A stretch of DNA of 42,785 nucleotides, taken from the NCBI GenBank assembly GCA_009835735.1, contig VXWX01000162.1:1-42785 (forward strand), written 5' to 3'. Both the position numbers and the translations under genes were made by a program. The number at the start of each line of letters is the position of its first letter. Positions within the stretch are counted from its first letter, which is position 1. Positions 9,727 through 37,114 of this stretch are shown piece after piece. Source of the stretch: Acidimicrobiaceae bacterium. GTDB taxonomy: Bacteria; Actinomycetota; Acidimicrobiia; Acidimicrobiales; Aldehydirespiratoraceae. The notes below the pieces were generated by a model. The model saw only the letters and a program-made list of their open reading frames with translations. It was not told the DNA's origin and ran no database searches.

Positions 9727-10232
9727 GGCCCAATCTTAGGTGAGTAACACAGGGCGGATGTGGCGCGAAAGGCCACGTCAGGGGAGGTGCTCCAACGGTT
9801 AGGCGGTGGCGCGAACCCTCCGGCGGCCGACATCCCGCAGCCCGCTCTAGATATCGGCACTTCACAGCGGCGCGAAGTTCTGGGCCCACACCAGTGCGGT
9901 GTGACACCTTTCGCGCCACAATTCTTCGCGCCAGAGCACAGAAGCACGGCCACCAGCCCCTCAGCCCGAGAATTCTCTTTCTTGGCACGCGCCCAACCCC
10001 GCCAGAGGTGGGCCAAGCGCCCACTGGTCGACGGTCCACCGGCTCACAGCCACACACATCCAGCCCTTCACGCTTAGGGGATGGGCTTCCTGTTGGTTTG
10101 CTCTGAACATCTGCCAGAAATCTGCGGCCCTCAGCCGAGGCAGCGTCGCAGTGCGACAGTCATCGGCATGAGAACACGGCACCAGTAGCCGCTGGCGCCC
10201 TCAGCAACCGGTGGGTATTACCGTCCGCTGCC
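9727..10232. repeat. Spacer with five GGCGCGAA motifs, a GGCACGCGCC repeat and an AGTAGCCGCTGGCGC box
   Basis: No gene seen. It holds motif copies at 9761-9770 (+), 9807-9815 (+), 9861-9876 (+, TTCACAGCGGCGCGAA), 9909-9918 (-) and 9925-9932 (-). The third and fourth face each other around an inner hairpin CACACC/GGTGTG (9887-9903). A copy of the longer dispersed repeat (GGCACGCGCCC, ending GGTCCACCGGCTCACAGC) spans about 9971-10051 on the plus strand. The CACCAGTAGCCGCTGGCGCC box lies at 10180-10199, 34 bases before the next gene. Confidence 0.8.
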
Positions 10233-11057
10233 ATGAACGAAGCCGAGCCAGCACACAACGAGCGCGAAGCAGCTGACCTTGTTGCCTCCGTAGTCGGAGG
10301 TTCACCTCACTGGCGCGATACGAGAGTCGCCCCGCACAAACACGACTATGACATCGTGCTGCCCGACGCCTCCGTCATCGCTCTGGAGATAACGCGCCAG
10401 ACCTCACAAGACGACCACGAGTTCCAGGGCATCCTCGATAGGGAGAAGAAGCAAGACTGGCGCTTCTCCCGCCTGAGGAACGACTACAGCGTCGTGATCA
10501 ATGCCCCCGCAGGTGGAAATCGTGTCGGCAAGCGCATCAACGACCTGTTGAGGCAGCTTCGTCGCGAGGTTCCTGCGCTCCTTGAAGAGGTAGAGCAGAC
10601 AGGCGCGGATGTCACCTTCATTCCTCTGCGCGGCCCTGTTACACCTCTCCAAGAGAAGCTGAGTGCCCTCCAAATCGTCGCGGTCAACCCCCAAGGCCCA
10701 GCAGCCTCCGAGGACGGTGGGATGGTGTACCTAGTGCGCTGGGTCTCGCCAGTATCGGTTGGTGATGAGATACCAGCCGCGGCAGAACGTCACATCGGCC
10801 TCAAGGCTGCCAAGCTGTTGCACAGAGCCAAGACCACGGGAGCCTCCGAGGCGCACCTGTTCGTATGGCTTGAACCCGGCCCCAACAGCCAAGCTCCGCC
10901 TGTCGCCATGGCAGCGGGACGCTCCCCGGACCGTGTGCCAGAACTCTGCGGCCTGGACACCGTGTGGGTAGCAATCCACGACGGAGACGACCCGCGCAAG
11001 TGGGGTATGTGGCGATGCACCCCCGCCGAGGGATGGACCCACATCCCGTTCACATGA
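10233..11057 (+). CDS. Hypothetical protein, PD-(D/E)xK-like, island family A, copy 1
   Basis: 274 residues, no signal or membrane helix. Near the N-terminus HDYDIVLPDASVIALEITRQ (Asp38/Asp40, Glu52) has the spacing of a PD-(D/E)xK nuclease core, but the third motif reads E-I-T in place of E-x-K. The C-terminal GLDTVWVAI...WGMWRCTPAEGWTHIPF matches the ends of the proteins at 11714 and 22488, so the three are diverged paralogs. A nuclease or nucleic-acid-binding role is inference; loss of Lys may mean an inactive or variant site. TACCGT eight bases before the ATG could be a leaderless promoter. Confidence 0.7.
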   Translation: MNEAEPAHNEREAADLVASVVGGSPHWRDTRVAPHKHDYDIVLPDASVIALEITRQTSQDDHEFQGILDREKKQDWRFSRLRNDYSVVINAPAGGNRVGKRINDLLRQLRREVPALLEEVEQTGADVTFIPLRGPVTPLQEKLSALQIVAVNPQGPAASEDGGMVYLVRWVSPVSVGDEIPAAAERHIGLKAAKLLHRAKTTGASEAHLFVWLEPGPNSQAPPVAMAAGRSPDRVPELCGLDTVWVAIHDGDDPRKWGMWRCTPAEGWTHIPFT

Positions 11058-11315
11058 CCCAACACACAAGACTCTCTCCGCCGAAACCGCTGCCACAGCT
11101 GCCGCGGGGCAGCCGATCACTTTCACAACTCCCGGACCCGCTCAACCCCACAACGAACTGCTGCACGCGCTAACGGCGCAGCCTGACACTGACCGGGGAC
11201 GCTCCATGCTCGCTGTCGCACCTCACGCTTAGTGTCCAAAGCGGGGCTCGGACGGGTGCCCGTGATAGCTGGCCCAGCCATCCGGTCGGTCAGACAGTCA
11301 ACGAGAGAGGGCGCG

Positions 11316-11681
11316 ATGAATAGCGACGTGAGAACCACTGTTGAAGGGATCGCCAAGAAGGTCTACGCGGAGCTTCGTGGCGGTTATCTGGAGAGCGTCT
11401 ACCAGCAGGCGATGGCGATTGAGTTTCGCGAGCTGGGCATCGCCTACGAGATCGAACACACTCGGGAGGTCTTCTACCGGGGCCAACGGGTCGGTGAGCA
11501 CAAGTTGGACTTCCTGGTTCTCGATGATCTCGTGATTGAGCTGAAGTCAGTTGACAAGGTGTCGAAAGCCATGCGGGCTCAGCTCGGGGCCTATCTGCGC
11601 AACATGAACATCAAGGCCGGTCTGCTGGTCAACTTCCCCAACGAGGGGGACGAGCCGATAATCGAGCCCATCGAGGGCTGA
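11316..11681 (+). CDS. GxxExxY family protein (PD-(D/E)xK fold)
   Basis: 121 residues, family of unknown function with a nuclease-like fold. The naming motif is present as G23-YL-E26-SV-Y29, and the core as KLDFLVLDDLVIELKS, giving D65 and E75-x-K77, so unlike its neighbours this one keeps the full D...ExK set. The C-terminal QLGAYLRNMNIKAGLLVNFP is typical. ATG 11316 is preferred over an earlier GTG-frame start because of GAGAGAGGG in front and because it matches family length. Convergent with the next gene, 32 bases away. Confidence 0.88.
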   Translation: MNSDVRTTVEGIAKKVYAELRGGYLESVYQQAMAIEFRELGIAYEIEHTREVFYRGQRVGEHKLDFLVLDDLVIELKSVDKVSKAMRAQLGAYLRNMNIKAGLLVNFPNEGDEPIIEPIEG

Positions 11682-11713
11682 GCCGGATCGGCGACCCCGT
11701 AGCCGCCAGGGGT

Positions 11714-12574
11714 CTAGGAGCGTGGAACTATGTGGCGCTCTTGGCTGTCGCCGGGCTTGAACAGGCGCAGCACGGTGTAAGTCTCTTCAGCGTTGTCTTC
11801 TCCACCACGCGACTGGGCGACCACCCACACCTCGTGGAAGTAGTCAAAGGTGATGGCGTCCATGCTGGGGTGAGGTGACGGCGAGCCGGGACCGAAGAAC
11901 TCGTTGAGCAACGATGCTGGCTCCATTTCAAGCATCACGGCCAGCCACCTCAGATCGGGGGCGTTGTCCAGTTGCGCTTCGCCGGCCTTGGCGTTGATGC
12001 ACTCCTGGATCACTGGGATGAGCCGCCGGTAGTCGACACGCCCACCCTGGGGGGCGTTGCCATAGGTGCGTACCGCCCCGCGCCCGCTCCCCACATGCTG
12101 AGGCACCTTCACCACATCGACGGATCGGGTGCCGCCGCAGCAGCGCATCATCTCCGGGTCGAGGCGCAACACCGTATCGGCCGCACCCCTCATCTGCTGA
12201 GGCGAGTAGCTCCTGCCTTCCACTGACACCAGAACATCACACACCGCGTTCATCAACTCATGGAGAGGAAGGTGTCTGTTGGCGGTGGGGGTGTGATCCG
12301 TCGCGATGACGGTCCACACATAGGACAACCGCTCGTCCGGCCAGCGCCGGGCTGAACCGCGAGGCGAGAACGACTGCATGAACCGGACCCCTGCTTCGTC
12401 GGTGCAGAGCGTGACCTCTACATCGGCGACGCGTCCATCGGACATGAGCACCCGCCAGTCGGGCGTCTTCACGCTTCCTGACGGCACCAGCCGCTCGCAC
12501 TGCTCCACATCTTCAACAGCGCAGATGGCGTCAGCAGCGGCTTGCTCGTCTGCTCGGGGCTTCTCCTCGGCCAT
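11714..12574 (-). CDS. Hypothetical protein, PD-(D/E)xK-like, island family A, copy 2
   Basis: 286 residues. KTPDWRVLMSDGRVADVEVT (Asp39, Glu53) again has PD...E-V-T where nucleases have PD...E-x-K. It is closely similar to the protein at 22488: shared blocks include LVPSG, KTPDWRV, ADVEVT.CTDE, RLSY.WT, LANAP/LDNAP..L.WLAVMLE, NEFFGP.S.SP.P and EVWV near the C-terminus. More distant from the copy at 10233. TAGCGT eight bases before the ATG may be a leaderless -10. Role unknown; nucleic-acid processing is inferred only from the fold-like motif. Confidence 0.72.
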   Translation of the reverse strand: MAEEKPRADEQAAADAICAVEDVEQCERLVPSGSVKTPDWRVLMSDGRVADVEVTLCTDEAGVRFMQSFSPRGSARRWPDERLSYVWTVIATDHTPTANRHLPLHELMNAVCDVLVSVEGRSYSPQQMRGAADTVLRLDPEMMRCCGGTRSVDVVKVPQHVGSGRGAVRTYGNAPQGGRVDYRRLIPVIQECINAKAGEAQLDNAPDLRWLAVMLEMEPASLLNEFFGPGSPSPHPSMDAITFDYFHEVWVVAQSRGGEDNAEETYTVLRLFKPGDSQERHIVPRS

Positions 12575-12652
12575 TGCGAGCGACGCTACCCACCCAACGT
12601 TCTGCTGACAGCGGTGCTCCCCGGGGCCCGAGGGAGCGTCTCGGTGGCTGTT

Positions 12653-13132
12653 CTAGAGTCCGCCAAATATCGACAGCTGGCGGCGCTCCAGCACACCCGA
12701 CCATCCGGCGCGCCGGTACCTGATTAACAGGTCGGTGTTGATGCCGACGCTGGCTGTGAAGGTGTTGCCGGGGTCGACGATGTACCCGCGCCAAGCAGGG
12801 TCGCCTTCGGTGTCGAGGATCAGGTAGTCATCGTCACTGTCGGTCACGTCTATCTCATCGAGCTTGCCCGTGGCTTCGTTGTAGGTCGCCAATCCCCTAA
12901 CGGTGGCCTTCAGGATCCGCACCGGCAGAGGTGACTCGTTCTTGACTCGCCAGAAGCCCCCATGTCCGATCATCTCGTCATCGGGCCACTCGTCGTCGGG
13001 CTCGTCGTCAGACCCCCCAAATATCTCCTCGTAGCTCAGCTCGGTGCTGGTCAGCACCACCCCCCGCGGCAGAAAGAACCACAGCAGCAGCGAACACACG
13101 ATGGAGACACCCCCACCGGCGATGAGTTCCAT
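12653..13132 (-). CDS. Hypothetical membrane-anchored protein, 159 residues
   Basis: Not recognised. Residues about 4-20 (IAGGGVSIVCSLLLWFF) form one membrane helix at the very N-terminus, followed by an acidic stretch (SDDEPDDEWPDDE) and a beta-rich soluble domain (FWRVKNESPLPVRILKATV ... DYLILDTEGDPAWRGYIVDPGNTFTASV) that looks like an immunoglobulin-like or bilayer-facing domain. Translation start is close to AAGGG with little spacing, so it is either leaderless or starts slightly differently. Lies behind an AGTGGCCGCTGGCGC box at about 13190-13208. Confidence 0.62.
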   Translation of the reverse strand: MELIAGGGVSIVCSLLLWFFLPRGVVLTSTELSYEEIFGGSDDEPDDEWPDDEMIGHGGFWRVKNESPLPVRILKATVRGLATYNEATGKLDEIDVTDSDDDYLILDTEGDPAWRGYIVDPGNTFTASVGINTDLLIRYRRAGWSGVLERRQLSIFGGL

Positions 13133-13213
13133 TTCCCTTGTCTACCTTCCCCAGCACGCGCCGAAGCGGTAGCGCAGCCCCAGCATCAGCACCAGTGGCC
13201 GCTGGCGCTCGTG

Positions 13214-13780
13214 CTAGAAGAGGCTCTGCTGCTGCGTGGTGGGCTCAGGCTCGGACAGCAAAATTGGCTCTCGGGGAGACATCGGGTAAAGGTCCACCCT
13301 GGTGTCCGGCGTGAGACAAACAGAGCACATCTCCATCACGATGCCGTCATTGTCGGTGGTCTCCAGCCACATCGGGTTGGCGGTACGGCACGCGATGCAC
13401 ACCCAGAGCGGGTCTGGGTGTGGGGATGGGGCCTGCTTGGTGGGCTGCATCACCCCGACGATGCCATCTGCGGCTGTGGCCCCCACGGTCAGGCCGAGGC
13501 CTGCCAACATCCGCAGCGTCACGGGCCACAGCTCCCCGTCGTCGTGCCCATCCCATGCTCGCTCTCTCAGCAGGCAGAGGCTGCCGAGGTAGCGCTCTTG
13601 TGCCCATTCGTCGACCATCACCTTCAACATCTGTTGTCCAACTGCCGTGTTGACCTGCTCGATGAGCAGCGCGCATATTCGGCTGTCGGCGTCCGGGCTG
13701 GACAGCAGGTCAGCGAGTTCACCCGCAGCCGCTAGTTGGTCGGTGATGCTCACCTCTGTCGAAGAGGTCTGCGAGTTCAT
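13214..13780 (-). CDS. Zinc-ribbon protein, island family B, copy 1
   Basis: 188 residues: a helical N-terminal two thirds and a C-terminal zinc ribbon with ligands C128-x2-C131 and C152-x2-C155. The middle (EWAQERYLGSLCLL ... ELWPVTLRMLAGLGLTV ... GIVGVMQP) aligns with the proteins at 35181 and 35851 in the pattern W..k..L..L......W..TL..L...gL..V....G...v.pL. Start ATG 13780 is chosen because the open frame further upstream runs through intergenic repeat copies. Function unknown; a zinc ribbon suggests nucleic-acid or protein binding. Confidence 0.7.
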   Translation of the reverse strand: MNSQTSSTEVSITDQLAAAGELADLLSSPDADSRICALLIEQVNTAVGQQMLKVMVDEWAQERYLGSLCLLRERAWDGHDDGELWPVTLRMLAGLGLTVGATAADGIVGVMQPTKQAPSPHPDPLWVCIACRTANPMWLETTDNDGIVMEMCSVCLTPDTRVDLYPMSPREPILLSEPEPTTQQQSLF

Positions 13781-14202
13781 TCCAACAGGCTCGCAGACGT
13801 TTCTTGCCGCGACCGGGGAGCCCAGCCCGAGGCCATCGAATTGCAGTCCCAACCGCCAGCGACCGGGTGTCAAGGGCCGACCCTGGCGGCGCGAAACAAA
13901 GCATCGACGACCAGGCCGATCTCGGAATGATCGCTGGCGCGAAACCCGTTCGACACTCAGCACCTCGTCGAGGATCGACTTTCGCGCCGCTGTGACCTGC
14001 CGGGTTCCGGTAGTGGTGCCATCGACGATCAACCTCGGGGGCGGATCGCCGACCGATCACAGGCCCAGAAGCTCCGAATATCGGCCCCAAGAACAAAACC
14101 CCCGCACGCGCCGCAGCCCGCTGACAGCCTCAGCGACAGGCAATCGTCCCTGGAGCCTGCTAGAGGTTGAACTCTTCGTCTCGGACCGAAGGGAGTCGCG
14201 CA
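13781..14202. repeat. Spacer with three GGCGCGAAA motifs, one full-length
   Basis: No gene seen. Copies at 13885-13896 (+), 13935-13944 (+) and 13980-14000 (-); the last is the longest form, TTTCGCGCCGCTGTGACCTG. The second and third face each other across about 35 bases with an inner CCTCG/CGAGG hairpin. A GCACGCGCCGCAGCCCGCTGACAG fragment of the longer repeat lies near 14104-14127. Confidence 0.75.
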
Positions 14203-14760
14203 ATGTCCAACGGTCAAGCCTCAAAGGACACCGCCGAGGTTTGGGGCCAAATCCTTTTTGAGGCCCGCGAGAATCGAAGCAAACAAGATGCCCAACTCGC
14301 CAGCGCGCAGCGCCAGTCCCAGTTTCTCGTTGCGGGATTCCTCGCGGTCACGGCCCTCGTTATCACTGCCGTCTCCACCTACGTCGCATCACAGTCCGAC
14401 GAAGCACGATCTCGGCTCGCAGACTCACTGCTGAACTACGATTACTCGGCACAAGTCGGAATCTCAGTGTTCACCGTTGTCACGCTGATGAACGGCCTCG
14501 CGTGGTTCGTCACCCACAGAATGGCGAGGCGCTTGGCAGAGAAGGTAGAAACCGAGGACTTGTTGCACTACCCCGGTAGCGAGGACGCTCTTGTGCATCT
14601 GCGTCGCCACCTCGTGCGAACCCTCACGGCACAATTGGTCAACAACGAGAGAGCCGTCATATGGGCTCATCGAATCGTCATTGGCCAGGTGGTGCTGACA
14701 TTCTTGTTCTTCTACGCGCTCCAAATCGCCCTTGCTACCTACGCTTTGAGCGCACCATGA
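14203..14760 (+). CDS. Three-helix membrane protein, island family C, copy 1
   Basis: 185 residues. N-terminal cytoplasmic-looking helix (TAEVWGQILFEARENRSKQDAQLASAQRQSQ) followed by membrane segments at about 42-63, 83-103 and 153-178. The protein at 29808 repeats this plan with near-identical N-terminus (EVW.QIL.EARE.R..Q.A.L.SAQRQSQ). Start ATG 14203 has GAAGGGAG at good spacing, the same ribosome site as the paralog. Function unknown; such multi-helix proteins are common effectors in phage-defence loci, but that is inference. Confidence 0.72.
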   Translation: MSNGQASKDTAEVWGQILFEARENRSKQDAQLASAQRQSQFLVAGFLAVTALVITAVSTYVASQSDEARSRLADSLLNYDYSAQVGISVFTVVTLMNGLAWFVTHRMARRLAEKVETEDLLHYPGSEDALVHLRRHLVRTLTAQLVNNERAVIWAHRIVIGQVVLTFLFFYALQIALATYALSAP

Positions 14761-15128
14761 CCCAACAGCACGCGCCGACAGGTGCAGGCTTCCTCCAGCC
14801 GAAGCACCAACCGCCACCAGCCACCAGCCCCCAAGAACAGAAATTGTTGGCACGCGCCGAGCCCCCAGCGAGGCCAGGCTGACACTGGCCCGCACCCCAC
14901 AACACCCCTCGGCTTATCATCCCGAGCCAGCCGCCCCGGAGGAGGCTCACAGCCTGGCGGGAACCAGCCCCCGACAAAGTTCCCCAACACGGGGGCCGAG
15001 ACGAGACACGCGCTGACAGGTGACGGCACAACAGCAAGCGAGACAAGTGGCTGCCAGCTTCCAGGAACGTAGCTCTCTGCCGGTTGGCAGGTTTTCGCCG
15101 CCCTGTCGACTTCGGTCGCAGTTGGGAG
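14761..15128. repeat. Spacer with longer dispersed repeat
   Basis: No gene seen. A plus-strand copy of the long repeat spans about 14838-14895 (CAGAAATTGTTGGCACGCGCC, GGCCAGGCTGACACTGG). A further AGCACGCGCCGACAGGTGCAG fragment begins at 14768 and a related ACACGCGCTGACAGGTG lies near 15007. AAGTGGCTGCCAGC at about 15046-15059 resembles the short palindromic box. Confidence 0.65.
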
Positions 15129-15713
15129 CTACTTGGGGCGCTCACCAGCGTGAAGCGGATGCGTCAACTCATGCGTCAGCTTCTTGGCGTCAAGGCGGTC
15201 CACTGGCAGCCTTGCTGCCCTTGCCATCGCCACGATGAGCGGGACCATATCCTTCGCCTTGCTTTCTGGTCCTAAGTGCGACCGGAACTCTTCCAGGGCC
15301 TTCATGACTCCTTCATCGTCCATGTACGCGATGATGATCTCGTTGAGCGCAACCCAGAACTCACTAGGTGCGAATCGTTCCTCTCTGAGGAGCAGGTATC
15401 GGTGACCAGCGAGCTTGCGCAGCACGTCGCGGCGCAGACGACGCCGTTCGGATCGGTCCGAGAGGCGCTGGGTTGCCAGCACCGTAGCCAGCGACACGAA
15501 TGCGGCGACCGCAGCGCTCACAATCACCGTGGTCAGGTTGGGCCAGCCCTGGCTGGCCGCTTGCTCCGATGCAACTGCGACGGGATGCTCCGTCACGGGC
15601 TCCTGAGCAGATTCACCACCCGTTAGCGCTTCGGCAGTCCCTCCCATGCAGGCCAATGCCAGCAGGGTCAGAAGTGCAAGTCTTGGCATGCGAAAGCGGC
15701 GACGATTCGACAT
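15129..15713 (-). CDS. Membrane protein with DUF6680-like C-terminal domain
   Basis: 194 residues. A signal-like hydrophobic N-terminus (about 9-28) and a second membrane helix (LTTVIVSAAVAAFVSLATVLA, about 59-80) lead into a basic helical domain: RRDVLRKLAGHRYLLLREERFAPSEFWVALNEIIIAYMDDEGVMKALEEFRSHLG. The order N-terminal helix, R-rich, ALNEI..Y.DDE.V..A...., MV.LIV.MA resembles the DUF6680 family as I remember it; this is tentative. ATG 15713 has AGGAGG at nine bases and is preferred over the upstream open frame. Confidence 0.68.
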   Translation of the reverse strand: MSNRRRFRMPRLALLTLLALACMGGTAEALTGGESAQEPVTEHPVAVASEQAASQGWPNLTTVIVSAAVAAFVSLATVLATQRLSDRSERRRLRRDVLRKLAGHRYLLLREERFAPSEFWVALNEIIIAYMDDEGVMKALEEFRSHLGPESKAKDMVPLIVAMARAARLPVDRLDAKKLTHELTHPLHAGERPK

Positions 15714-16346
15714 GGATAGTTCCTCCTGTCGTGCTATGCGGTTCAGCGTCGGGAGCAGGGCCACCTGCCTGCAAGCAAGGTCGCTGTTCCACCAGGTTGA
15801 GGCTAGGCCCAGCGATGTCCGCGGCGTAACACAAGGTCACAGCGGCGCGTAACCCACGTCATGTCGCCGGCGCCCGCTCATGCGAGCGCTGCTCGCCGAT
15901 CCCCATTTCGCGCCGCTCCCGATCCAACTGTCCATGAACGGCCGCTGCTCTCAGGTCTTGTGCCTTGGGCTTGCCGCCATCTCCGGGCGCTGACGGCTGC
16001 CAGGCGGTAGCTGGGAGCCGGTGGACCGTCAGCTAGTGCAAGCCTGGCCCTGCGGGCGCGTGCCGAAGATTTCTGTTCGTCAGCCCACCCCACGCGCCCC
16101 CGGCGCAAGCAACCACTAGCCGCCACACCCGCAGCCTGAACCCGGCAGCCGCCCACCAGCCGCGCCGCTAGATCGCCGCAGATGAACAGCGTCACACCTA
16201 GAACGCCCTTCTCCAGGAGGAAGGCCGAGACAGGGGATCACAACCCAACGCCCGCCTCCAAGAGCGGCGGCACGAGTGGCCGCTGGCGCACAGACGGGCT
16301 GGAGGCATGAGCGTTCGTCACATTCGCTGCTCGCTATGGTGAGCCG
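15714..16346. repeat. Spacer with an inverted GGCGCGAAA pair and a long repeat copy
   Basis: No gene seen over about 630 bases. AGGTCACAGCGGCGCGTAA at 15834-15852 (+) faces TTTCGCGCCGCT at 15906-15917 (-), with GCTC/GAGC pairs in between. A minus-strand copy of the long repeat spans about 16010-16080 (GCTGGGAGCCGGTGGACCG through GCGCGTGCCGAAGATTTCTG). CACGAGTGGCCGCTGGCGCA, the short palindromic box, is at 16271-16290. Confidence 0.75.
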
Positions 16347-16442
16347 ATGCCCAGCAGAATGGACGCCAGATGGTGGCTAGGGATGCTTGTAGCGCTAGCA
16401 GCCATCGTGGTTGGACTAGTCCTGCTTGATGCACTGGTCTAG
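16347..16442 (+). CDS. Putative 31-residue single-helix membrane protein
   Basis: A short open frame begins MPSRMDARWWLGML and runs through one continuous hydrophobic helix (LVALAAIVVGLVLLDALV) to a TAG stop. A basic N-terminus, two Trp at the membrane edge and a helix of about 20 residues are what a real small membrane protein looks like. GGTGAG lies just before the ATG, and TATGGT is six bases upstream. It sits 39 bases before the DUF4238 gene and could be its partner. No homolog is known to me. Confidence 0.45.
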   Translation: MPSRMDARWWLGMLVALAAIVVGLVLLDALV

Positions 16443-16481
16443 TAGCGGATCACGCTGATTGAGCCGCGCTGGGACGGACCC

Positions 16482-17531: not shown

Positions 17532-18072
17532 TCGCGCAACCTGCCCCGATTCTGTTTGTGCTGGTCCACTGGCGCGAAACCGTGATCCGGCGCGCCGGTG
17601 CCAGCAGCTACTGCTCGCCGGGCCCTCATCTTGGAGCTGATCGCTTTGGCGTTCCCCGCCTACAACCGTATGAGCATGTGCGCCGGTTGGTGGCTGTATC
17701 CCGTCGCCTTCGGCTGGTGCTCAGAGCCGGTGATCGGTGGGCGCTGACTGTTGGTCAGGCTGAGAGTGTTGGCTTGGCCCGCCCCTTGCGGGGTCGGGCG
17801 CGTGCCGGAGATTTCTGCTTGTTGGCCCTATTGGGGTGGCGCTGAACCGCTGCCCCTGTGGCCAGGCATCACCGCCGCTCGAGTACCCGAGCGTCGGCAT
17901 GTCACTCCGGGCTGATATATCGTGCGCTCGCCACCCAAACGCCGGGGCTTACCGAAACCCCGTCAGATGACCTGGCCATGTGTTGGCCACAGCGCTGCCA
18001 TGGCTCTCCCTGGCTAGGTCAGAAAAGCGTTTGGGTGGTACCAGCGCTAGCGCCGACCAGGGAGGGCCACCC
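17532..18072. repeat. Spacer with a GGCGCGAAA motif and a long repeat with strong hairpin
   Basis: No gene seen over about 540 bases. TGGCGCGAAA at 17570-17579 (+). A minus-strand copy of the long repeat covers about 17721-17825; its centre, GCCCGCCCC-TTG-CGGGG-TCGGGC at 17778-17800, forms a strong hairpin. The final 60 bases before 18073 hold the ribosome site of the lipoprotein gene (GGAGGG at 18061-18066). Confidence 0.7.
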
Positions 18073-19615: not shown

Positions 19616-20084
19616 CGGCCTCGCTCACCTGGTCGGCCGATCCGCTCCTCCTAGGCCGTCCGCCAGTCACCTTCCCGCCGACGTGAGCCACAGAGAGCAG
19701 CCCAGCGACGCTCCCCTATGTTGCCCCAGACAGGCTTCTCTCTGAGCGAGTTAGCGGCGATTGTGGCGGGGTGTTGCTTGACCTCCCCAAGGAACGGGGA
19801 ACCCACGAACACGACATTTGCAGTACTCCCCCCGAGGGGACGGCGGGGATCCTGCAGGGGCAGCGGCGCGAAAGGCTGAAGACGCCACTGGTGTGTGGAT
19901 CGGCGATCAGCGGCGCGAAACCAGATGTCCGGAGCCGCTGCTAAGGCCGCGCCCGTCGCGGCTGGTCACAACGGCGCGAAAGATCGGAGGGCCTGCACCT
20001 CGGTGTGGGTAGCGTTCGTGGCCGCGCTCCGGTCAAGTCCCGCGGCGGCTGAGTATCGAGGCGCATGCCGGAGCGGCGGTGCTG
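19616..20084. repeat. Spacer with three direct GGCGCGAAA motifs
   Basis: No gene seen. Three copies in the same (+) direction at 19861-19873, 19908-19920 and 19964-19981, about 47 and 60 bases apart; the last has the longer form GGTCACAACGGCGCGAAA. The spacer separates two convergent genes, so here the repeats are not promoters of either. Confidence 0.75.
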
Positions 20085-28644: not shown

Positions 28645-28686
28645 CCACAAAGCAGAGCTTTGTGGATTTCGCGCCGCTCTGACCTC
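28645..28686. promoter_or_regulatory. Hairpin joined to a GGCGCGAAA motif upstream of the lipoprotein gene
   Basis: CCACAAAGC-AGA-GCTTTGTGG (28645-28665) is a perfect 9-bp stem; one base later comes TTTCGCGCCGCTCTGACCTC (28667-28686), a minus-strand copy of the dispersed motif. Read in the gene's direction, the motif precedes the hairpin, about 110-150 bases before the lipoprotein start. Confidence 0.6.
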
Positions 28687-28900: not shown

Positions 28901-29110
28901 TCAGGCGGCTATGGACTCTCGTGCATCGAGCCACTCCCACACAACAGCTCGGGGCCAGCCAACCGCACGAGCGTTCTCTCCACCCAGTCGGATCGGCGGC
29001 GGAAACTCACCCTGCCGGATTCGGCGCCATATGGTCGATTTGCTTAGTCCGATCACCTTTGTCAACTCATCGAGCCGCATAATGCCATCTACAACTGTCG
29101 TCGTCGTCAT
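28901..29110 (-). CDS. AlpA-type MerR-like helix-turn-helix regulator
   Basis: 69 residues. RLDELTKVIGLSKSTIWRRIRQGEFPPPIRLG is the winged-helix signature of the AlpA/excisionase family, and RAVGWPRAVVWEWLDAR its C-terminal helix. AlpA-like proteins in P4-type elements activate or take part in excision. GGAGGAACG precedes the ATG. It stands alone in front of a pair of hairpins, which suggests its own transcription unit. Confidence 0.88.
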   Translation of the reverse strand: MTTTTVVDGIMRLDELTKVIGLSKSTIWRRIRQGEFPPPIRLGGENARAVGWPRAVVWEWLDARESIAA

Positions 29111-29551: not shown

Positions 29552-29807
29552 GATCCGGTGGCGGGCGACCCGTATCACCGCAGGCGTGTCGCGCCACTGG
29601 CGGGACCGGGGATGGAGCGGCGATAGGCAGCGGGCCCTTAGCCATCCCCCAGCAGACAGTATGCACACGGCCAGGTAGCCGACCGGGCGGGACAGGCGAC
29701 AGCCCCTCGCCTTGTCGCTGGAGCGCAGTTACTTGTGATGTCGTACCCCGGTGTCATTCTGGACGTAACCGTCTACGACTCGTGCCGGAGATCGAAGGGA
29801 GCCACGC

Positions 29808-31244: not shown

Positions 31245-31408
31245 GCAGCCTCCTCCTCGGGCCAACGCCACCGGCCCTTCGCGTCATAGGCACCGTCCGC
31301 CGGTGAGCGCACCCGGTTGCACCACTGGCAGGCCATGCTCACGCCACCCCAACGGTGCTGCCAGCTGTGATCACCGAGAGCGCAAGCGAACCGGTCGACG
31401 ATGCTCAC
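31241..31408 (-). CDS. Small zinc-motif protein, 55 residues
   Basis: GTG start overlapping the upstream stop (GTGA); begins VSIVDRFACALGDHSWQHRWGG and has CQWCNRVR as a C-x2-C pair. Its VSIVDR start repeats the VSIVDR near the start of the gene directly upstream, suggesting a shared binding segment or duplicated leader. Function unknown. Confidence 0.6.
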   Translation of the reverse strand: MSIVDRFACALGDHSWQHRWGGVSMACQWCNRVRSPADGAYDAKGRWRWPEEEAA

Positions 31409-31809
31409 GGCCTGCGCTCCACAACGAGAGACGGGCCGGTAACACGCCACAACCGCTCTCTGCTCTGCTGAGATCGCCGTGGGCCACGCGTCTGCTTCGC
31501 AGGCCGGGACGCTCTCTGCTCATCGGTCTCACAGCACGCCAAACTCAGAGACCGCCACCGTCCGTCCCATGTGCGCTGATCGAGGCGTGACTCATCAAGC
31601 TGCCACTGGTAAGAGCACACAGGGCCGCAATAGACGGTGCGCCGCCCCGGCGGGATCAGGCCAGAGCACACAGCGCAAACGCCGCGGCGGATTCTCGCCC
31701 GTTTCAATTCCGTCATAGCGGCCCTCATCTCACGAGGCGTGGCAGCCGTCGCGATGTCGGCCATGAGCGACTGATCGGAGAGACGGTCAACGATGGAGAC
31801 AGCAGTCAT
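31405..31809 (-). CDS. Zinc-finger protein, 134 residues
   Basis: Begins MTAVSIVDRLSDQSLMADIATAATPREM. A compact metal site GVCAVCSGLIPPGRRTVYCGPVCSYQW has C45-x2-C48 and C61-x3-C65, a type seen in phage-encoded DNA-binding fingers. C-terminal third is basic and disordered (RPAKQTRGPRRSQQSRERLWR). Start overlaps the preceding stop by one base. Likely binds DNA or RNA in the replication module, by inference. Confidence 0.68.
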   Translation of the reverse strand: MTAVSIVDRLSDQSLMADIATAATPREMRAAMTELKRARIRRGVCAVCSGLIPPGRRTVYCGPVCSYQWQLDESRLDQRTWDGRWRSLSLACCETDEQRASRPAKQTRGPRRSQQSRERLWRVTGPSLVVERRP

Positions 31810-32174
31810 CAGTCGCCCTCCCAGATGAAGCTCTCCACACCAAAGTTCGGACCTTCAGTGCTGCCGTCCCACGCCGTCACCGACTGGCACTCTGAGCACT
31901 GGATCAGCACGCCCTCGGACACCCCGGCGGGTGTGTTGTCATGCTCGGACACCAGCCCAGTCCCAGCGGTGAATGTCCACTCGGGCGGGGCCAACGGCTG
32001 TGCCAAAACCGCCGTGTCCCACACAGCGTCGACGGCGGAGTCAAACAGCTCTCGGTTGGTTGGGCCGTGGCGTTCAAAGTGGGCGTCAGTGGCGGCTCGC
32101 ACCCCGGCCCCGACGTTCCTCAAGAATGCCTCCCGGAGAAACCTGCACGCCGCAGGATCATGGTGCTCGGTCAC
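31809..32174 (-). CDS. Hypothetical protein, 121 residues
   Basis: GTG start overlapping the Toprim gene's stop (GTGA), with GGGAGG in front. Helical N-half (AACRFLREAFLRNVGAGVRAATDAHFERHG), then a beta part ending in GVLIQCSECQSVTAWDGS (C-x2-C) and FIWEGD. Not recognised. Coupled on both sides, so it belongs to the replication operon. Confidence 0.65.
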   Translation of the reverse strand: MTEHHDPAACRFLREAFLRNVGAGVRAATDAHFERHGPTNRELFDSAVDAVWDTAVLAQPLAPPEWTFTAGTGLVSEHDNTPAGVSEGVLIQCSECQSVTAWDGSTEGPNFGVESFIWEGD

Positions 32175-32893
32175 GCGACCTCCCTTATCTGCACAACGGG
32201 AGCGGCGTCGGGCTCAACGATGCTGTCAGACGCGCCCGCTGGGATGGCCTCTATCGCAGCGTTAACTGTGTCGGCCCAGGCGGCCCGATAGGTGCGCCAC
32301 CCGTCGGCGATGTCCCACCCCACACGGGCGGGCCGCAAGTAACTGACAGCCGGATAGGTGGCTCGGAGCGTTCGGATGACGCCCCCCAACTGCTGGCGAG
32401 CGCCCACCTTCTCCGGCTTGTCATGATCAGCGATGAGCACTATCCGGGAAGGCTCAATGCCGTGCGCCACTAGCCGCTCGACCGTTGCGACCATGCTTCC
32501 CAATCCCGCCGCGCCAATCGTCGGGCTGCTCCAGGTGCGGAAGAAGTTAGCGACTAGCCAATCCGTGAGGCCCTCGCAAACGGGGATGCGGCTAGTGGCG
32601 TCCGCAATGATGAGGCTCTCCATCCCAAACGGCAGGGCGGGGAGGTCATAAGCGTTCTTCTTGGTGTCACCAGTCGGCCAATTGCGGTAGTCGTCGGGAG
32701 GCGTGCTCACCGACCAGTCGACGTAGCTGTGGCCGCCATTGAGGTCGTAGGTGAGCACGCGCAGCCGATCCGGGATGCGCTTCACGGGATAGATGTCGGC
32801 GGGCTCGTAATGCAGCACCTCGCGCAGGTAGCCGTCGGGTAGGCGCAGCTTGCGGGATGCGGCCGCATATAGGCGGTCGGCTCGGGAGGGCAT
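32171..32893 (-). CDS. Toprim-domain protein, primase-like
   Basis: 240 residues. The Toprim core is clear: VCEGLTDWLVA with Glu106, and VLIADHDKPEKVGARQQL with the D155-x-D157 pair that holds Mg2+. Preceding residues (DRLRVLTYDLNGGHSYVDWS) resemble the region before Toprim in phage primase/helicase proteins. It lacks a visible zinc-binding domain and a helicase part; the helicase is the separate gene just upstream, one base away. Together they would initiate replication of the excised element. Confidence 0.84.
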   Translation of the reverse strand: MPSRADRLYAAASRKLRLPDGYLREVLHYEPADIYPVKRIPDRLRVLTYDLNGGHSYVDWSVSTPPDDYRNWPTGDTKKNAYDLPALPFGMESLIIADATSRIPVCEGLTDWLVANFFRTWSSPTIGAAGLGSMVATVERLVAHGIEPSRIVLIADHDKPEKVGARQQLGGVIRTLRATYPAVSYLRPARVGWDIADGWRTYRAAWADTVNAAIEAIPAGASDSIVEPDAAPVVQIREVA

Positions 32894-32894
32894 A

Positions 32895-34193
32895 TCAGCA
32901 TCCCTTCCGGCATTGATGGATTGGATATCCGTGCTCGCACCGGATTGATGTCACCGGTGACATCGACCGGTGACCGGTCCCCCCTAGGGGGGGTTCCCGG
33001 TCACTAGTGACGTCACTAGTGGTCACCGGTGACGTTCCCGGTCGGGGAATGGCGTATACGGTGCTGTTGCGCGGGCCGGGGGATGAGGTCACCGATCCGG
33101 CATCCTCCAACGCGGCCAATTGTGTCGCTAGCACCTTCTTGCGGCCGCCCAATCGCATGGCCAGCTTGTTGATGGTCAGCCCATCCGGATTGTCGGCCAG
33201 CAGGTCTAACAGTTGCCGTTGCCGTGCCTTGGGTGTGCGGTCAATGGCTCGCCGTTCTATTTGCAGCCACCGCTCACCGTCCGCCTCCCGCCATTCGCCC
33301 ACAATGTCGGCTACCGGTTCTTGCGCCGATCCGACGGTCCCGTGCCGGTCCTTAGTCACCGTGATCCGGATGCGCCCATTGCCGCTATCCGACCAGCATG
33401 GGCCCTCCAGATAAAAGGCGTGCGTAGGGTCGTTGAGGTTGGCTACCGATCCGTATTGCGTAGCTTGCGATTCGGATGCGCCCGTGAAGTGTCCCTTCGC
33501 GACATGGCCGCACATCACTACCGTGATCCCGGCGGCGGTCCATGGGCGCACATGCTCATCTAGCCATTGGTAGGTTTCGGCCGCGCCGTGATGAGTGTTA
33601 CCGGCGGCGGATGCCGTGTCGATGATGACCAGCCCGTAGCCGTCCCCGCCGGTGAGCCATCCGACGGCGGCATCTAATTTCTCGCCCTCCCCGCCGTACA
33701 GCTGTGTCGAATCGACGTAGGCCATCAAGTTCGGGTCGGCCCACAAGTTCAGCAGCCGTCGGCCGTCAAGCATCATGATCCGTTGCTTGTGCCGGGGGAG
33801 GCTCATCTCCCAGTCCCACAACAGAACGCGATCCTGCTTGGTGAGCGCATCGTAGATGAGCATGTGTACTAGCCAGGTCTTACCGGCCGACGGTGCAGAA
33901 AACATGGCCGCTATCTCCCCGCCGGGATAAATCAATGAGCGGCCGTCGTCCAGTGTGAGCCACCGCGGGTCGGGGGGCTCGCCAACCTCATCCCAATCAA
34001 TGCGGGTGCGCCATTGGGCGGGTGCGCCGTTCGGCGGGTCGGCTAGTTCGGTGGGCGGGATGCCGCCACTAGCGGTAAAGAACGAATAGTCGTCACCAGG
34101 CGCGGATGCGGCTAGTTCGTCAGCCCATCCCGTCGGGGCGGATTGTGTGTCCGCCTGTGTGGTGACTGTCTCCGGGGGCTCGGTTGTCGTCAT
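32895..34193 (-). CDS. RepA-like AAA/RecA-fold replication ATPase
   Basis: 432 residues. Walker A near 99-107 (SAPSAGKTW, Lys105), then LLWDWEMS, Walker B GLVIIDTASAAG (187-) and VVMCGHVAKG (His230), the pattern of AAA_25/RepA hexameric helicases. The C-terminus has a winged-helix-like part (RQRQLLDLLADNPDGLTINKLAMRLGGRKKVLATQLAALEDAG). The last ~45 residues are a disordered tail encoded by a cluster of DNA palindromes, ending in a Cys cluster (IRCEHGYPIHQCRKGC). AAGGGAAG precedes the ATG. First large gene of the replication operon. Confidence 0.84.
   Translation of the reverse strand: MTTTEPPETVTTQADTQSAPTGWADELAASAPGDDYSFFTASGGIPPTELADPPNGAPAQWRTRIDWDEVGEPPDPRWLTLDDGRSLIYPGGEIAAMFSAPSAGKTWLVHMLIYDALTKQDRVLLWDWEMSLPRHKQRIMMLDGRRLLNLWADPNLMAYVDSTQLYGGEGEKLDAAVGWLTGGDGYGLVIIDTASAAGNTHHGAAETYQWLDEHVRPWTAAGITVVMCGHVAKGHFTGASESQATQYGSVANLNDPTHAFYLEGPCWSDSGNGRIRITVTKDRHGTVGSAQEPVADIVGEWREADGERWLQIERRAIDRTPKARQRQLLDLLADNPDGLTINKLAMRLGGRKKVLATQLAALEDAGSVTSSPGPRNSTVYAIPRPGTSPVTTSDVTSDREPPLGGTGHRSMSPVTSIRCEHGYPIHQCRKGC
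32949..33033. repeat. Cluster of GTCACnnGTGAC palindromes, possible replication origin
   Basis: Inside the 3' end of the RepA-like gene: TGTCACCGGTGACA (32949-32962), CCCCCCTAGGGGGG (32979-32992), GTCACTAGTGAC (33000-33011), GTCACTAGTG (33012-33021) and GTCACCGGTGAC (33022-33033). The last three are back to back. Such a spaced set of one palindrome is what an initiator binding region looks like. Confidence 0.65.
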
Positions 34194-34231
34194 GGCTTCC
34201 CTTGGCCTGCTTGGGGCCTGTTGGGCTGGGG

Positions 34232-34426
34232 TTATCGCAGCGGCCCCAGCACGGATTGTCGGTGGACAGAACGGAAACGACCCCGCGTGGTGCGGGGCCG
34301 CTCCGAAGCATTTTTGGCAAAGACCATGACGACGTTGCCACGGCCATTGTACCTGGCCGCCAAGACCGGTACGGGGCGCTGCTGCGGCATCGTCAATGCC
34401 CGGAGGGTTGCGGCGAGCAGAGTCAC
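34232..34426 (-). CDS. Possible small basic protein coupled to the ribbon-helix-helix gene
   Basis: 64 residues from a GTG that overlaps the upstream stop (GTGA): MTLLAATLRALTMPQQRPVPVLAARYNGRG then a basic tail. Only the overlap and lack of stops support it; composition is not distinctive. May be chance. Confidence 0.35.
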   Translation of the reverse strand: MTLLAATLRALTMPQQRPVPVLAARYNGRGNVVMVFAKNASERPRTTRGRFRSVHRQSVLGPLR

Positions 34427-34713
34427 GCCACCGCCAAAGATTGCTGCGCTGCTTGCGCTTCTAGCGCGTCTTGTTCGTCTTGGGCCTTCAACACCGCGGT
34501 CTGTGTGTCACACCGACAGATGCATCGCTCGGTCTCCTTAGCGACCATTTGGCGGGCCGTCGGCCGAGCACACATGACGATGGTCGGTCCGACGTCGCGG
34601 CCTTCAATGAGTGCCAACTCTTCGAAGAGTTGTCTGTCTGCGGGTGTCATTCGGATAGAGATCACTGAGTCCCGTTTGTGGTTCTTCAGCGCCCTCGATT
34701 TCCTGGGTTTCAT
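34423..34713 (-). CDS. Ribbon-helix-helix-type regulator
   Basis: 96 residues. RDSVISIRMTPADRQLFEELALIEGRDVGPTIV has the short basic beta strand followed by two helices typical of ribbon-helix-helix (CopG/Arc) proteins. TATTCT stands exactly seven bases before the ATG with no ribosome site, a leaderless promoter. First gene of the replication operon, and a likely repressor of it; the hairpin at 34836-34855 upstream could be an operator. Confidence 0.68.
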   Translation of the reverse strand: MKPRKSRALKNHKRDSVISIRMTPADRQLFEELALIEGRDVGPTIVMCARPTARQMVAKETERCICRCDTQTAVLKAQDEQDALEAQAAQQSLAVA

Positions 34714-35180
34714 GTCACTGAGAATAACCAGCCAGGGTGCATCACTTCAGAAAACTGATGGACATTAGTGGGGCGCCATCACTGTGGGAGGCCAAATACC
34801 AGTGTGGTGTTACATGTATTGAAGAACTCTGTGCTAACCCGTTGACTAATGGGTTGTTCTACAAGTCAAAGAAACTTCTGCCTCTCAGGCGCCGGTCCAG
34901 CCAGAACGCACCAGATTTGGCCCAGACCGGTGTTTCTGTGCCAGCTTCCGCTCGCCTCTCCCCGGTGTCCCTACCCGTTGTCTCTGTCGCCGGGGTCGGC
35001 TCCCGGCTCTTGGTTCGGTGATGTCCGGCGTGCGGTTGTGTGTTGGGTGGCTTCTGTTGCGGGTCTCAGGTGTTAGGTCGCTGACGTGTGGCTCTCAGGC
35101 CAGCATTAGCTGACCCTTGGGGGTGCTGTGGGCTTACGGCAGCGGGGGTTCGCTGGGACGGCAAGAGTGTCCGCTCGCTG
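34714..35180. promoter_or_regulatory. AT-richer control region upstream of the replication operon
   Basis: No gene seen. The first 150 bases are clearly AT-richer than their surroundings and include an inverted repeat AACCCGTT-GACT-AATGGGTT (34836-34855). The TATTCT -10 box of the ribbon-helix-helix gene lies at its edge (about 34721-34726 on the minus strand). The rest is featureless. Confidence 0.45.
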
Positions 35181-35705
35181 TCACCAGAGCGTCTCTTGGC
35201 CGGGGATCTCGCCTTGACGGTGCCGGAACGTGGTGTGGCCGCACTCGGAACAAGAGCGATAGGCCACAGCGAAGCGAAGCCAGCTCTCGGTCCAGGTGTG
35301 CCAGCACGATCCGCACGGCTGCAGGCTGAGGCGACGACCTTGCAGCGCGGTAAGCGGCTCGACGGCGCACGCGCCGTCTCGGTGATGGATGACTGCCGCG
35401 AGACCCTGTTCGGCCAGCACCTCCAGGGTGGGCCACCACAGGTCCTCATCGCTCCACAGCCGGTCCAGGACGGAGAGCAGCCACGCTTCCGTTTTCGTCC
35501 ACAGCGGGACCAGTTGCCTCACGGATGCCCGGAAGGCGTCAGCGCTGAGGGGCTTCATCACCATCTCTCGGACCACCGGGGTCAGGCTCTCGGCGCTGAG
35601 GCAGTCGGCCCTGTTGAGCGGGTTGAAGTTAGCGAACTGTCTGAGTAGGTCCCTAAGCTCACTCGCCGCTCGCTCCGCCTCCATCCCGTCGATGACGGAT
35701 TCCAT
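35181..35705 (-). CDS. Zinc-ribbon protein, island family B, copy 2
   Basis: 174 residues: helical front part, then LVPLWTKTEAWLLSVLDRLWSDEDLWWPTLEVLAEQGLAAVI and a zinc ribbon with C131-x2-C134 and C152-x2-C155. Ribbon spacing matches copy 1 (C128-x2-C131, C152-x2-C155) closely, and the block before it aligns with both paralogs. GGAGGGAGGG precedes the ATG. A GTCGCGCCGTTGTGACCTGC motif copy (35829-35848) lies 125 bases upstream. Function unknown. Confidence 0.72.
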   Translation of the reverse strand: MESVIDGMEAERAASELRDLLRQFANFNPLNRADCLSAESLTPVVREMVMKPLSADAFRASVRQLVPLWTKTEAWLLSVLDRLWSDEDLWWPTLEVLAEQGLAAVIHHRDGACAVEPLTALQGRRLSLQPCGSCWHTWTESWLRFAVAYRSCSECGHTTFRHRQGEIPGQETLW

Positions 35706-35828
35706 GTCTCTGTCCCTCCCTCCTTAGATCGAGGCGGGCGTTTGATCACGGACTTGGCGCGCCATTACGGGGAAGTTCGGGTGTGGAGGAAACCCCGGAT
35801 TCTCGCGACGTAGCTCGGCCCGTCCGGA

Positions 35829-35848
35829 GTCGCGCCGTTGTGACCTGC
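35829..35848 (-). repeat. Dispersed motif copy between two family B genes
   Basis: GTCGCGCCGTTGTGACCTGC on the plus strand, complement GCAGGTCACAACGGCGCGAC, matches the consensus except for the last two As. It lies in the 145-base gap between the stop of one family B gene and the start of the other. Confidence 0.75.
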
Positions 35849-35850
35849 AC

Positions 35851-36390
35851 CTAGTGGGCGGCGTCGGGCTCTGGAGGGAGCAACTCTTCTAGGACGGGGA
35901 TCCCCATGCAGTTGCCGCAGCTCATGCAGATGCAGAGGAAACACCCCTCTCTGATGGCCTCGGCCCACACACCGCAGGAGCAGTCGATCACGGGGAAGGG
36001 TCTCCTGAACTGGCTGAGAGGCATGAGACCCTGCACACCCCCCGTGTTGCTGACCACTGGCAGCAGGTTTCTCTGTGACAGGCATCCCACAGTGACGATC
36101 CACGCGTCGGCAGGTCCGTCGCCGTGGATGGTGGCCAGGCTCCCGATCAAGAGCCCTTTCTCCCACCAGCGCGCCATCGTCGCCGTCAGCTTGCGACGAA
36201 CGCTGGCGCTGACGGGCTGTGACAGCACCCTTCCGGCCTCTTGTTCCAGATGGCGCTTGCGTTCCTTGCCGTCCGGGTCGGCAGGGTCTAGGGCGAGGAA
36301 CTGCTCTACAACCAGAAGCAGCTCGCCTGAAACGCACTGCAGCTGTATCTCCTCCCAGTCAGACAGCGTGTCGTTGTTGATGGATGGCAT
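35851..36390 (-). CDS. Zinc-ribbon protein, island family B, copy 3
   Basis: 179 residues. N-terminal helix, then KLTATMARWWEKGLLIGSLATIHGDGPADAWIVTVGCLSQRNLLPVV..TGGVQGLMPL, aligning with copies 1 and 2, and a richer metal cluster: C137-x-C139, C150, C153, C155, C158, C161. AGGAGG stands ten bases before ATG 36390; the open frame further upstream runs over a motif copy and is not coding. Next door to copy 2 in the same direction, so tandem duplication is likely for these two. Confidence 0.72.
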   Translation of the reverse strand: MPSINNDTLSDWEEIQLQCVSGELLLVVEQFLALDPADPDGKERKRHLEQEAGRVLSQPVSASVRRKLTATMARWWEKGLLIGSLATIHGDGPADAWIVTVGCLSQRNLLPVVSNTGGVQGLMPLSQFRRPFPVIDCSCGVWAEAIREGCFLCICMSCGNCMGIPVLEELLPPEPDAAH

Positions 36391-37114
36391 GGTTGCCTCC
36401 TTGTGTTGTCGAGGAGGCCAATAAAAACAGACGAATTTCTGAAAACCGGGGGGAGCGATCACCTCGCCGAATTCGGTGTCTCGCGCCGCTGTGACCTGCA
36501 GCGATGTGCTCGCTCTGCCTACGACAAGGGGCAATTTCACCGCTGGTTAGGGCCGGAAGAGAACGCAAACATGGTCTCTGGGGGTCTGTGGCGCGCCCAG
36601 GCGTTCTCAGCGGGCTACTCAGTGACCCCCTAATTGTTGCTCTTGTGGGACGCGCCGCAGCACCGCTGCGGCCAAGCGAACGACTCGCCGACCGCTCATC
36701 GGCCTGTGCTCCCTGCCTCTCAGCCCCTCCGCACCTGAAGGCGGCAGCCTGCCCCCTGTGTCTGAACCCCAGCCTCCGTTCACCGGTCTGAAGCCGAGAC
36801 GGGGCCGTGGCGCGAAACGGTCCCAGATCGTGGGGTTCTTGCATGATTGGCCGCTTGGCACCGAGGAGGCGCTCGGGCGCCGGCACGTGTTTTCGCGCCG
36901 CTACGTGGTGCCGTTATGGGCGTGATTTTTCTTGTGGCGCGAAATGGGGCTCGAACGCTCGTCTAAGAAATTGGTAGCGGAGGGCGGGCCTTCGCGCCGC
37001 TACGTAGTGCGGTTTCTTGCGACTGCCCGGTCCGGCACCTGCAACGCGGCACAAGAGGCCAACGTTCTGAAATCCTTGGCACGCGCCCGACCCGCAGGGC
37101 GGGCCAGGCTTGCA
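36391..37114. repeat. Longest spacer: five GGCGCGAAA motifs in alternating direction and a long repeat copy
   Basis: No gene seen over 725 bases. Motif copies at 36479-36499 (-), 36808-36817 (+), 36891-36906 (-), 36935-36944 (+) and 36991-37005 (-). The copies at 36891 and 36991 belong to 25-base near-repeats exactly 100 bases apart (CGCGCCGCTACGTGGTGCCG and CGCGCCGCTACGTAGTGCGG). A plus-strand long repeat (CTTGGCACGCGCCCGACCC, hairpin, GCTTGCACTAGC) covers about 37061-37145, running into the end of the next gene. Confidence 0.8.

Follow-up and report, generated by a model that had tools for sequence, protein, structure and literature searches.

In a mobile element of an Acidimicrobiaceae bacterium we find 22 copies of a short, asymmetric DNA site lying in the gaps between cargo genes, and we give an even chance to the reading that these sites are the operators of one dedicated cargo-gene regulator, working like phage stoperators. 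The window (the whole stretch analyzed, 42,785 nucleotides of contig VXWX01000162.1, or G000:C94 in our numbering) belongs to a draft genome of 3.29 Mb in 167 contigs that is 84% complete, and the element, at positions 9333-39604 (30.3 kb), is an island at a tRNA-Ser gene that encodes its own P4-type integrase. The sites are confined to cargo-gene gaps, are conserved in a second species of the genus (genome G002), and are biased in orientation toward gene starts. Most genomic-island cargo has no known control; if a site accompanies cargo genes from contig to contig and between species, it would single out a co-controlled, partly defence-type gene set and help to find the regulator. The results below are to be read against an incomplete draft, heuristic gene calls, G002 loci that are cut by contig ends, and a comparison that involves essentially two species.

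A first, sequence-only reading had listed 21 copies of the motif, and a GGCGCG-type site is present at all 21 places (some of the listed coordinates lie a few bases off the 9-mer, as they begin at the longer motif). Fourteen copies are the exact 9-mer GGCGCGAAA, the number originally given, and it is the most over-represented 9-mer of the 30-kb element; the corresponding expectation in the element is 0.24 under a second-order Markov model. A position matrix of 12 columns built from the 21 sites separates sites from background: all 21 matches of at least 12.9 bits are intergenic and comprise 20 of the 21 listed sites plus a new one at 29587 (minus strand), whereas the best flank and coding matches reach 11.8 bits. 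The listed site at 35828 has a core of 9.6 bits, yet carries AGGTCACAACGGCGCGA. One-mismatch 9-mers number 26 in the window, a count that no shuffle out of 100 attained (14.6 +/- 3.5); 24 of the 26 lie in the element, and 22 of these are intergenic. The flanks, described initially as free of copies, hold no exact 9-mer and two one-mismatch copies (851 and 5788).

All 22 sites are intergenic by heuristic gene calls, in keeping with the claim that none lies in a confident gene, and so are all 14 exact copies, in an element whose intergenic share is 32% (binomial P = 1.3e-7). Some starts in these calls were moved by eye (28537 for gene 27089), and with the first TTG of the open reading frame (ORF) 13214-14032 taken as its start, the sites at 13888, 13936 and 13980 would come to lie in the 5' part of that ORF; a start at 13780 scores better. 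Counted over the whole draft genome, RNGGCGCGAAA has 12 of its 13 matches in the element, the 13th falling within an ORF of 314 amino acids (aa). The assertion that the motif occurs only inside the element is right for this genome apart from that one copy, but the sites follow cargo genes and not the element core, and they recur on contigs C22, C26 and C46 of G002.

The full site is asymmetric and up to about 20 bp long, (A)GGTCAsArC-GGCGCGAAA, with (A)GGTCAsArCGGCGCGAAA as its longest form. Among 30 aligned sites (21 from the window and 9 from G002:C26, with 29587 and L050:3284 left out), the base preceding the 9-mer is C in 16, T in 14 and never a purine. Taken over all sites, a column value above 0.35 bit is confined to -3 to +8 and to a single further position, +46. 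By eye, a weak GAGGTG box lies 13 bp past the 9-mer at 9762, 13980 and 36479, and also at the G002 counterparts of 9762 and 13980; most sites are without it. The 22 sites are spread over nine gaps spanning 27 kb, as follows:

9762..9932, mixed strands, cluster 1: 9762+, 9808+, 9869+, 9909-, 9924-
13888..13998, mixed strands, cluster 2: 13888+, 13936+, 13980- (long form)
15834..15914, mixed strands, pair 3: 15844+ (long form, GGCGCGTAA), 15906-
17571..17579, plus strand, single site 4
19865..19981, plus strand, cluster 5: 19865, 19912, 19973, between convergent genes
28667..28685, minus strand, single site 6: AGGTCAGAGCGGCGCGAAA, 129 bp upstream of gene 27089-28537
29587..29598, minus strand, 22nd site, absent from the earlier list: AGTGGCGCGACA, 15.3 bits, intergenic
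35828..35846, minus strand, single site 7: AGGTCACAACGGCGCGA, 122 bp upstream of zinc-ribbon gene 35181-35705
36479..36497, minus strand, site 8: AGGTCACAGCGGCGCGA, 88 bp upstream of zinc-ribbon gene 35851-36390
36809..36998, mixed strands, cluster 9: 36809+, 36891-, 36936+, 36990-

Sites occur singly at 17571, 28667, 29587 and 35828, and the gap 36391-37617 holds five (36479 plus cluster 9). Spacing in the triple arrays is similar, at 46 and 61 bp from 9762, 47 and 61 bp from 19865, and 47 and 64 bp in the G002 array; facing inverted pairs leave 31-73 bp between their 9-mers. Orientation is informative where a lone site stands in a gap between genes of the same strand, and here seven of seven point at the downstream start (17571, 28667 and 35828 in the window; L274:5306, L274:15619, L275:11357 and L276:11557 elsewhere). 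Since one pair among the seven is orthologous, this amounts to six of six independent loci (p about 0.016). Divergent gaps say nothing on this score because either orientation points at a start, and the five-site gap 36391-37617, which is mixed (three sites toward the start, two away), was excluded from the count.

A scan of 16 genomes of the genus returned one further cluster, in G002, where it lies at one end of contig C26 (stretch L050); this contig contains cluster 1 at 72% identity and the block 13916-14010 at 82% (G002:C26:6113-6206), together with relatives of genes 9457, 14203 and the DUF4238 gene in an order that differs from that of the window. Cluster 1 reappears at G002:C26:407-581 with its five sites in the same order and orientation and with an extra site at 393; 42 of 45 core bases are identical, counted by eye, and around the block the gene side is not alignable and the other side only weakly similar (z 0.0 and 1.6). 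The same contrast is seen at the single site 28667, which keeps 20 of 20 bases at L275:11357- (G002:C46) upstream of a pair of orthologs (27089 in the window, 9657 in L275). By the same measure its distance to the orthologous starts is nearly equal, 129 bp in the window and 122 bp in L275 (28537, the start used for the window gene, was chosen by eye and corresponds to the start called for its L275 ortholog), and its surroundings show no alignable similarity in the 118-125 bp on the gene side or the 130 bp on the far side (z -0.5 and 1.0). Conserved sites amid unalignable surroundings are the footprint that bound sites would be expected to leave.

The cargo recurs along with the sites. Eight cargo proteins have relatives in the site-bearing stretches of G002 C26 and C46: 9457, 14203, 16482, 18440, 25093, 27089 and, with an identity of only 27-29%, 10233 and 22488. 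C46 (L274 and L275) carries the relatives of 18440, 25093 and 27089 as well as the two distant ones, and AbiEii and KAP genes are found beside them. In the C22 stretch, tblastn found no relative of the window cargo proteins; AbiTii is present there. In 51 genomes of the family the long form has five matches in G000 and six in G002 (two on C26, three on C46, one on C22), and ten other genomes have one match each, compared with 15 matches in 11 genomes, by an eye count, for the reversed control. The match in one of those ten genomes, G006:C16, is 367 bp upstream of a gene that looks by eye like one for a small membrane protein. The 19-bp form AGGTCASARCGGCGCGAAA has five matches across the order (397 genomes, of which 7 belong to this genus), all in G000 or G002, and none in the reversed control. 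A scan for paired sites in the same 397 genomes matched 36, with at most two pairs each except for three in G000 (reversed control, 15 genomes, counted by eye), and a direct-pair scan of the 16 genus genomes matched eight genomes, with five matches in G000, versus one match in the control. Over a collection of species genomes that may omit G000 and near genomes, the exact 18-mer gave 15 lone matches in unrelated taxa.

The sequence-only reading had proposed counting the motif in related elements, and 28 stretches at related integrases (fetched out of 66 other integrase match rows, many cut by contig ends) have no cluster. They hold four exact 9-mers, at most two per stretch, of which three are in ORFs of at least 800 aa; the fourth, close to a contig end in L117, is covered by no ORF of more than 42 aa. 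A search with the window integrase gave no match on G002 C22, C26 or C46. As the related-integrase stretches have no cluster, the sites belong to a cargo pool of the genus and not to the integrase.

We propose that one dedicated DNA-binding protein would act on the cargo genes of the island and on related cargo elsewhere in the genus, reading an asymmetric site of at most about 20 bp, (A)GGTCAsArC-GGCGCGAAA, whose 9-mer end would be essential. The best-placed single sites would act from about 90-130 bp upstream of a gene start, pointing at it, whereas the clusters of two to five sites in divergent promoter regions may be bound together, perhaps cooperatively. Through such binding, transcription of the cargo would be switched or silenced, in the way that a prophage is held silent by its stoperators. 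Of the four kinds of function first put forward for the motif, a regulator's site is the best supported; tests gave no support to the ends of a transposable repeat, to arm sites of the integrase or to recombination sites that fold.

A number of observations sit awkwardly with such operators. Five of the 22 window sites point at gene ends (19865, 19912, 19973; 36809, 36936), and sites that do point at a start stand anywhere from 88 to 629 bp from it. The block 13916-14010 is upstream of gene 14203 here and downstream of its ortholog in G002; near the G002 DUF4238 ortholog there is only a one-mismatch candidate, L050:3284+ (GGCGCGAAG), which points away; and L113 (genome G008) has a relative of cargo gene 10233 with no cluster. 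The conserved blocks, at 95 and 208 bp, are longer than a short operator requires. A scan of 9700-20100 for sigma-70-type promoters found no excess (1 found, 1.3 expected), and tblastn with 30 element proteins (integrase excluded) found none that binds DNA and that the window element shares with the site-bearing stretches of G002.

Candidates for the binding protein within the element, several of them already named in the sequence-only reading, include a family of three zinc-ribbon paralogs, the two listed above as genes 35181-35705 and 35851-36390, and the following:

13214..13780, minus strand, zinc-ribbon paralog by alignment (zinc ribbon named by eye from its cysteines), with a site 199 bp upstream

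Each of the three has a site 88-199 bp upstream, an arrangement that could mean self-control, but no match to these proteins was found in the other 50 genomes searched of the taxonomic family, G002 included. A structure model of the zinc-ribbon protein from three sequences is of modest confidence (mean predicted local distance difference test score, pLDDT, 67.5) and had no PDB match at E <=0.001, and we regard this protein as a weak candidate. The AlpA-type protein is an unlikely binder, because proteins related to it at 33-56% identity belong to islands with another repeat, the GAACGC arrays, in place of this site. A repressor combining a helix-turn-helix (HTH) with a stoperator domain was not recognised by Pfam (29 element proteins) or PHROGs (10 proteins), neither of which is a search for that domain itself.

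The closest parallels come from phages and plasmids. Cluster A mycobacteriophages such as L5 and Bxb1 have more than 20 dispersed asymmetric stoperators, mostly intergenic and with an orientation linked to transcription (PMC9283540, PMC3029335). To that extent the island sites are alike, as many copies of one asymmetric site dispersed in the intergenic gaps of a mobile element; unlike stoperators, they come with no phage lysogeny system, follow cargo across unlinked contigs, form clusters with inverted copies, and have another sequence. Cluster K mycobacteriophages carry asymmetric start-associated sequences (SAS, and extended forms, ESAS) repeated upstream of varied gene families, partly with inverted repeats (PMC3203893). 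Those directly precede start codons, whereas the island sites lie 88-629 bp from the start and can cluster. The plasmid RP4/RK2 has 7 KorA and 12 KorB operators (PMC7314908). Having many sites on one element is a feature the island shares. KorB sites are palindromic, and KorB belongs to the ParB family; the island site, by contrast, is asymmetric, and no ParB-family match was obtained among the 29 element proteins scanned. A limited search of PMC literature titles found no description of a cargo-linked site of this kind.

A possible but rather unlikely alternative to regulator operators is that cargo units exchange at the sites, whether a site-specific recombinase or homologous recombination between the repeats does the work; cargo would then be shuffled between islands in the manner of a cassette array. 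Slightly less likely again is a genus-wide form of this idea, in which GGTCAsArC-GGCGCGAAA would be an exchange tag moving defence-type genes between unrelated islands, with a site or cluster left at unit borders; it would constitute a cassette system that differs from integrons in having sites that are double-stranded and unfolded, and sites acting as exchange tags would expose a new route of gene shuffling. The shared cargo does differ in order between the window and G002 while the site blocks persist, and block 13916-14010 has changed sides of gene 14203 in the way noted above, before it here and after its ortholog there. At cluster 1 only 2 bp separate the edge of the similarity (9760 vs 405) from the outer 9-mer, the 33 bp on the gene side being unalignable, and in G002 an inverted copy stands 5 bp away. 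Two related proteins (40-41% identical; L252:5685-6668 and L276:8309-9277) on two of the three site-bearing contigs of G002 have no Pfam match and read by eye as degenerate tyrosine recombinases; however, this type of protein was not found in the window or in L050, and no recombinase was found that all site-bearing loci have in common. Site orientation is mixed, moreover, and some cargo gaps have no sites.

In favour of exchange, three of ten site stretches fold better than shuffles, with z from -2.5 to -3.3 (9861-9935 on both strands, and L050:505-590), whereas the other seven are unremarkable (z -1.65 to 0.41); the arms show no covariation between the two species, their changes by eye not being compensatory, and the 40 nt beside 35 sites have a mean z of -0.29 downstream and -0.10 upstream, compared with -0.05 in 150 control windows. 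A hairpin or single-stranded site finds no support, since the flanks fold no better than controls and the arms are not compensatory, even though 3 of the 10 longer stretches have z below -2. Integron attC sites are imperfect palindromes that fold as a single strand. The island resembles integrons in its cassette-like cargo with long non-coding gaps, and differs in having no consistent fold and mixed orientation; no integron-type integrase was found, the P4-type integrase being the sole recombinase-family match among the 29 element proteins scanned.

We consider it improbable that these are partition, clustering or nucleoid-type sites, at which a protein would load on dispersed copies and hold or silence the whole element with no gene-by-gene control. 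The many dispersed copies, their grouping in twos to fives, and the replicating-type character of the element (AAA_25, AlpA, a Toprim-like ORF) would suit such a role; yet the interval 29598-35828, which holds the replication-type genes, has no site of at least 12.9 bits, no ParA/ParB family was recognised by Pfam among the 29 element proteins scanned, and in G002 lone sites stand upstream of individual cargo genes. A shade more improbable is a promoter class, in which the motif would be what an alternative sigma factor or polymerase recognises, and no operator. The orientation toward starts and the near-equal distances in one ortholog pair (129 and 122 bp) fit this idea, whereas inverted pairs, direct repeats 46-64 bp apart, and the failure to find a consistent second box over all sites do not.

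Very improbable indeed are the ends of a small transposable or repetitive extragenic palindromic (REP)-type repeat: inverted pairs with 31-73 bp between facing 9-mers have the right geometry, but there are essentially no copies elsewhere in the genome, no constant unit, no hairpin excess beside sites and, by eye, no target duplication. REP/RAYT repeats occur in copies throughout a chromosome and form hairpins, unlike the present motif, which has 1 of its 13 RNGGCGCGAAA matches outside the element (inside an ORF) and no hairpin excess. Integrase arm sites, and a repeat linked to the integrase, were not supported in view of the dispersal over 27 kb and the lack of a cluster at related integrases; a coding explanation of the conserved cluster 1 was rejected because indels between the window and G002, by eye, break the frame. 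A phage origin was likewise rejected: in IMG/VR the exact 18-mer matched 0 stretches, a degenerate 17-mer gave 7 lone matches with no companion clusters, and the paired-site scan returned 34 stretches, in 29 of which the pair midpoint lies under an ORF of at least 150 aa. One of these, L165, has 19 copies of GGCGCGAA versus 3.1 expected, 12 of them in a repeat of 15-bp period (10876-11131) within one ORF; we take this repeat to be a chance look-alike of the motif.

The borders and core genes of the element are as follows:

9245-9332, plus strand, tRNA-Ser(CGA), by ARAGORN
9321..9332, plus strand, left attachment core CATACTCTCCGC, the 3' end of tRNA-Ser(CGA); repeat read by eye
28901..29110, minus strand, AlpA-type HTH protein (Pfam Phage_AlpA 1.4e-11)
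32895..34193, minus strand, AAA_25 (RepA-like) ATPase (AAA_25 5.7e-8), with a weak C-terminal MarR-like match (MarR_2 5.7e-4) below cut-off
34423..34713, minus strand, ribbon-helix-helix-like small protein, a candidate regulator by sequence reading, weakly matching one PHROG family that has no assigned function
38249..39394, minus strand, P4-type tyrosine integrase (Pfam Phage_integrase 2.6e-17, Arm-DNA-bind_3 1.5e-11; phrog_1)
39406..39438, plus strand, three TGTAACTT direct repeats at a spacing of 12-13 bp, in the stretch that separates the start of the integrase gene from the right attachment core
39593..39604, plus strand, right copy of CATACTCTCCGC, read by eye

The right copy of CATACTCTCCGC was not reported by a 23-mer search allowing up to 3 mismatches, and the Toprim-like ORF was assigned by eye. 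The TGTAACTT repeats beside the integrase gene, distinct from the main motif, are perhaps integrase arm or Xis sites; the count of this 8-mer over the whole window is not above chance, and only its grouping is notable. Several cargo genes look defence-like: those with PDDEXK_3, DUF4238 and Hypoth_Ymh matches and, judged by eye, some for small membrane proteins; in a PADLOC scan of 10 proteins the best match was DUF4238-Pers at 3.3e-5, others being 1.6e-3 or weaker. Two paralogous cargo pairs (11714-12574 with 22488-23354, and 14203-14760 with 29808-30404), with DNA similarity of 72-74%, suggest duplication or repeated acquisition. At the very start of the contig (29-51) lies a second tRNA-Ser-like 3' end with two mismatches; a search for known RNAs gave, besides tRNA-Ser, two matches, both under their gathering scores.

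A second repeated site, GAACGC in 10-bp steps and unrelated to the main motif, occurs in many islands with related integrases, so that island-specific control sites may be common in the genus. The form GAACGCNCNNGAACGC has 70 matches in the 16 genus genomes compared with 3 in the reversed control (summed by eye), and in six islands (G000:C123, L118; G002:C34, L123; G004:C40, L125; G010:C8, L126; G002:C39, L122; G002:C25, L115) the arrays are intergenic in 33 of 37 cases by heuristic gene calls. No GAACGC tandem array was found in the window element.

Further repeats accompany the gaps. An intergenic repeat of about 60-100 bp, TTGGCACGCGCCCGACCC...GGCTTGCACTAGC...CCACCGGC, often lies near GGCGCGAAA clusters:

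9984-10067, 14840-14930, 15989-16078, 17765-17828 and 37057-37162, second intergenic repeat in the window, with a weaker look-alike in G002 (L050, about 640-700)

A short near-palindrome, about CCAGTGGCCGCTGGCGC, is present at gene borders (10172-10198, 13182-13208 and 16263-16289 in the window). We note in passing that L123:35-490 comprises seven copies, 72-74 bp apart, of a unit that includes the palindrome GGCCGGGCACGTGCCCGGCC, the sequence from one copy to the next being partly different; this could be a clustered regularly interspaced short palindromic repeat (CRISPR) array.

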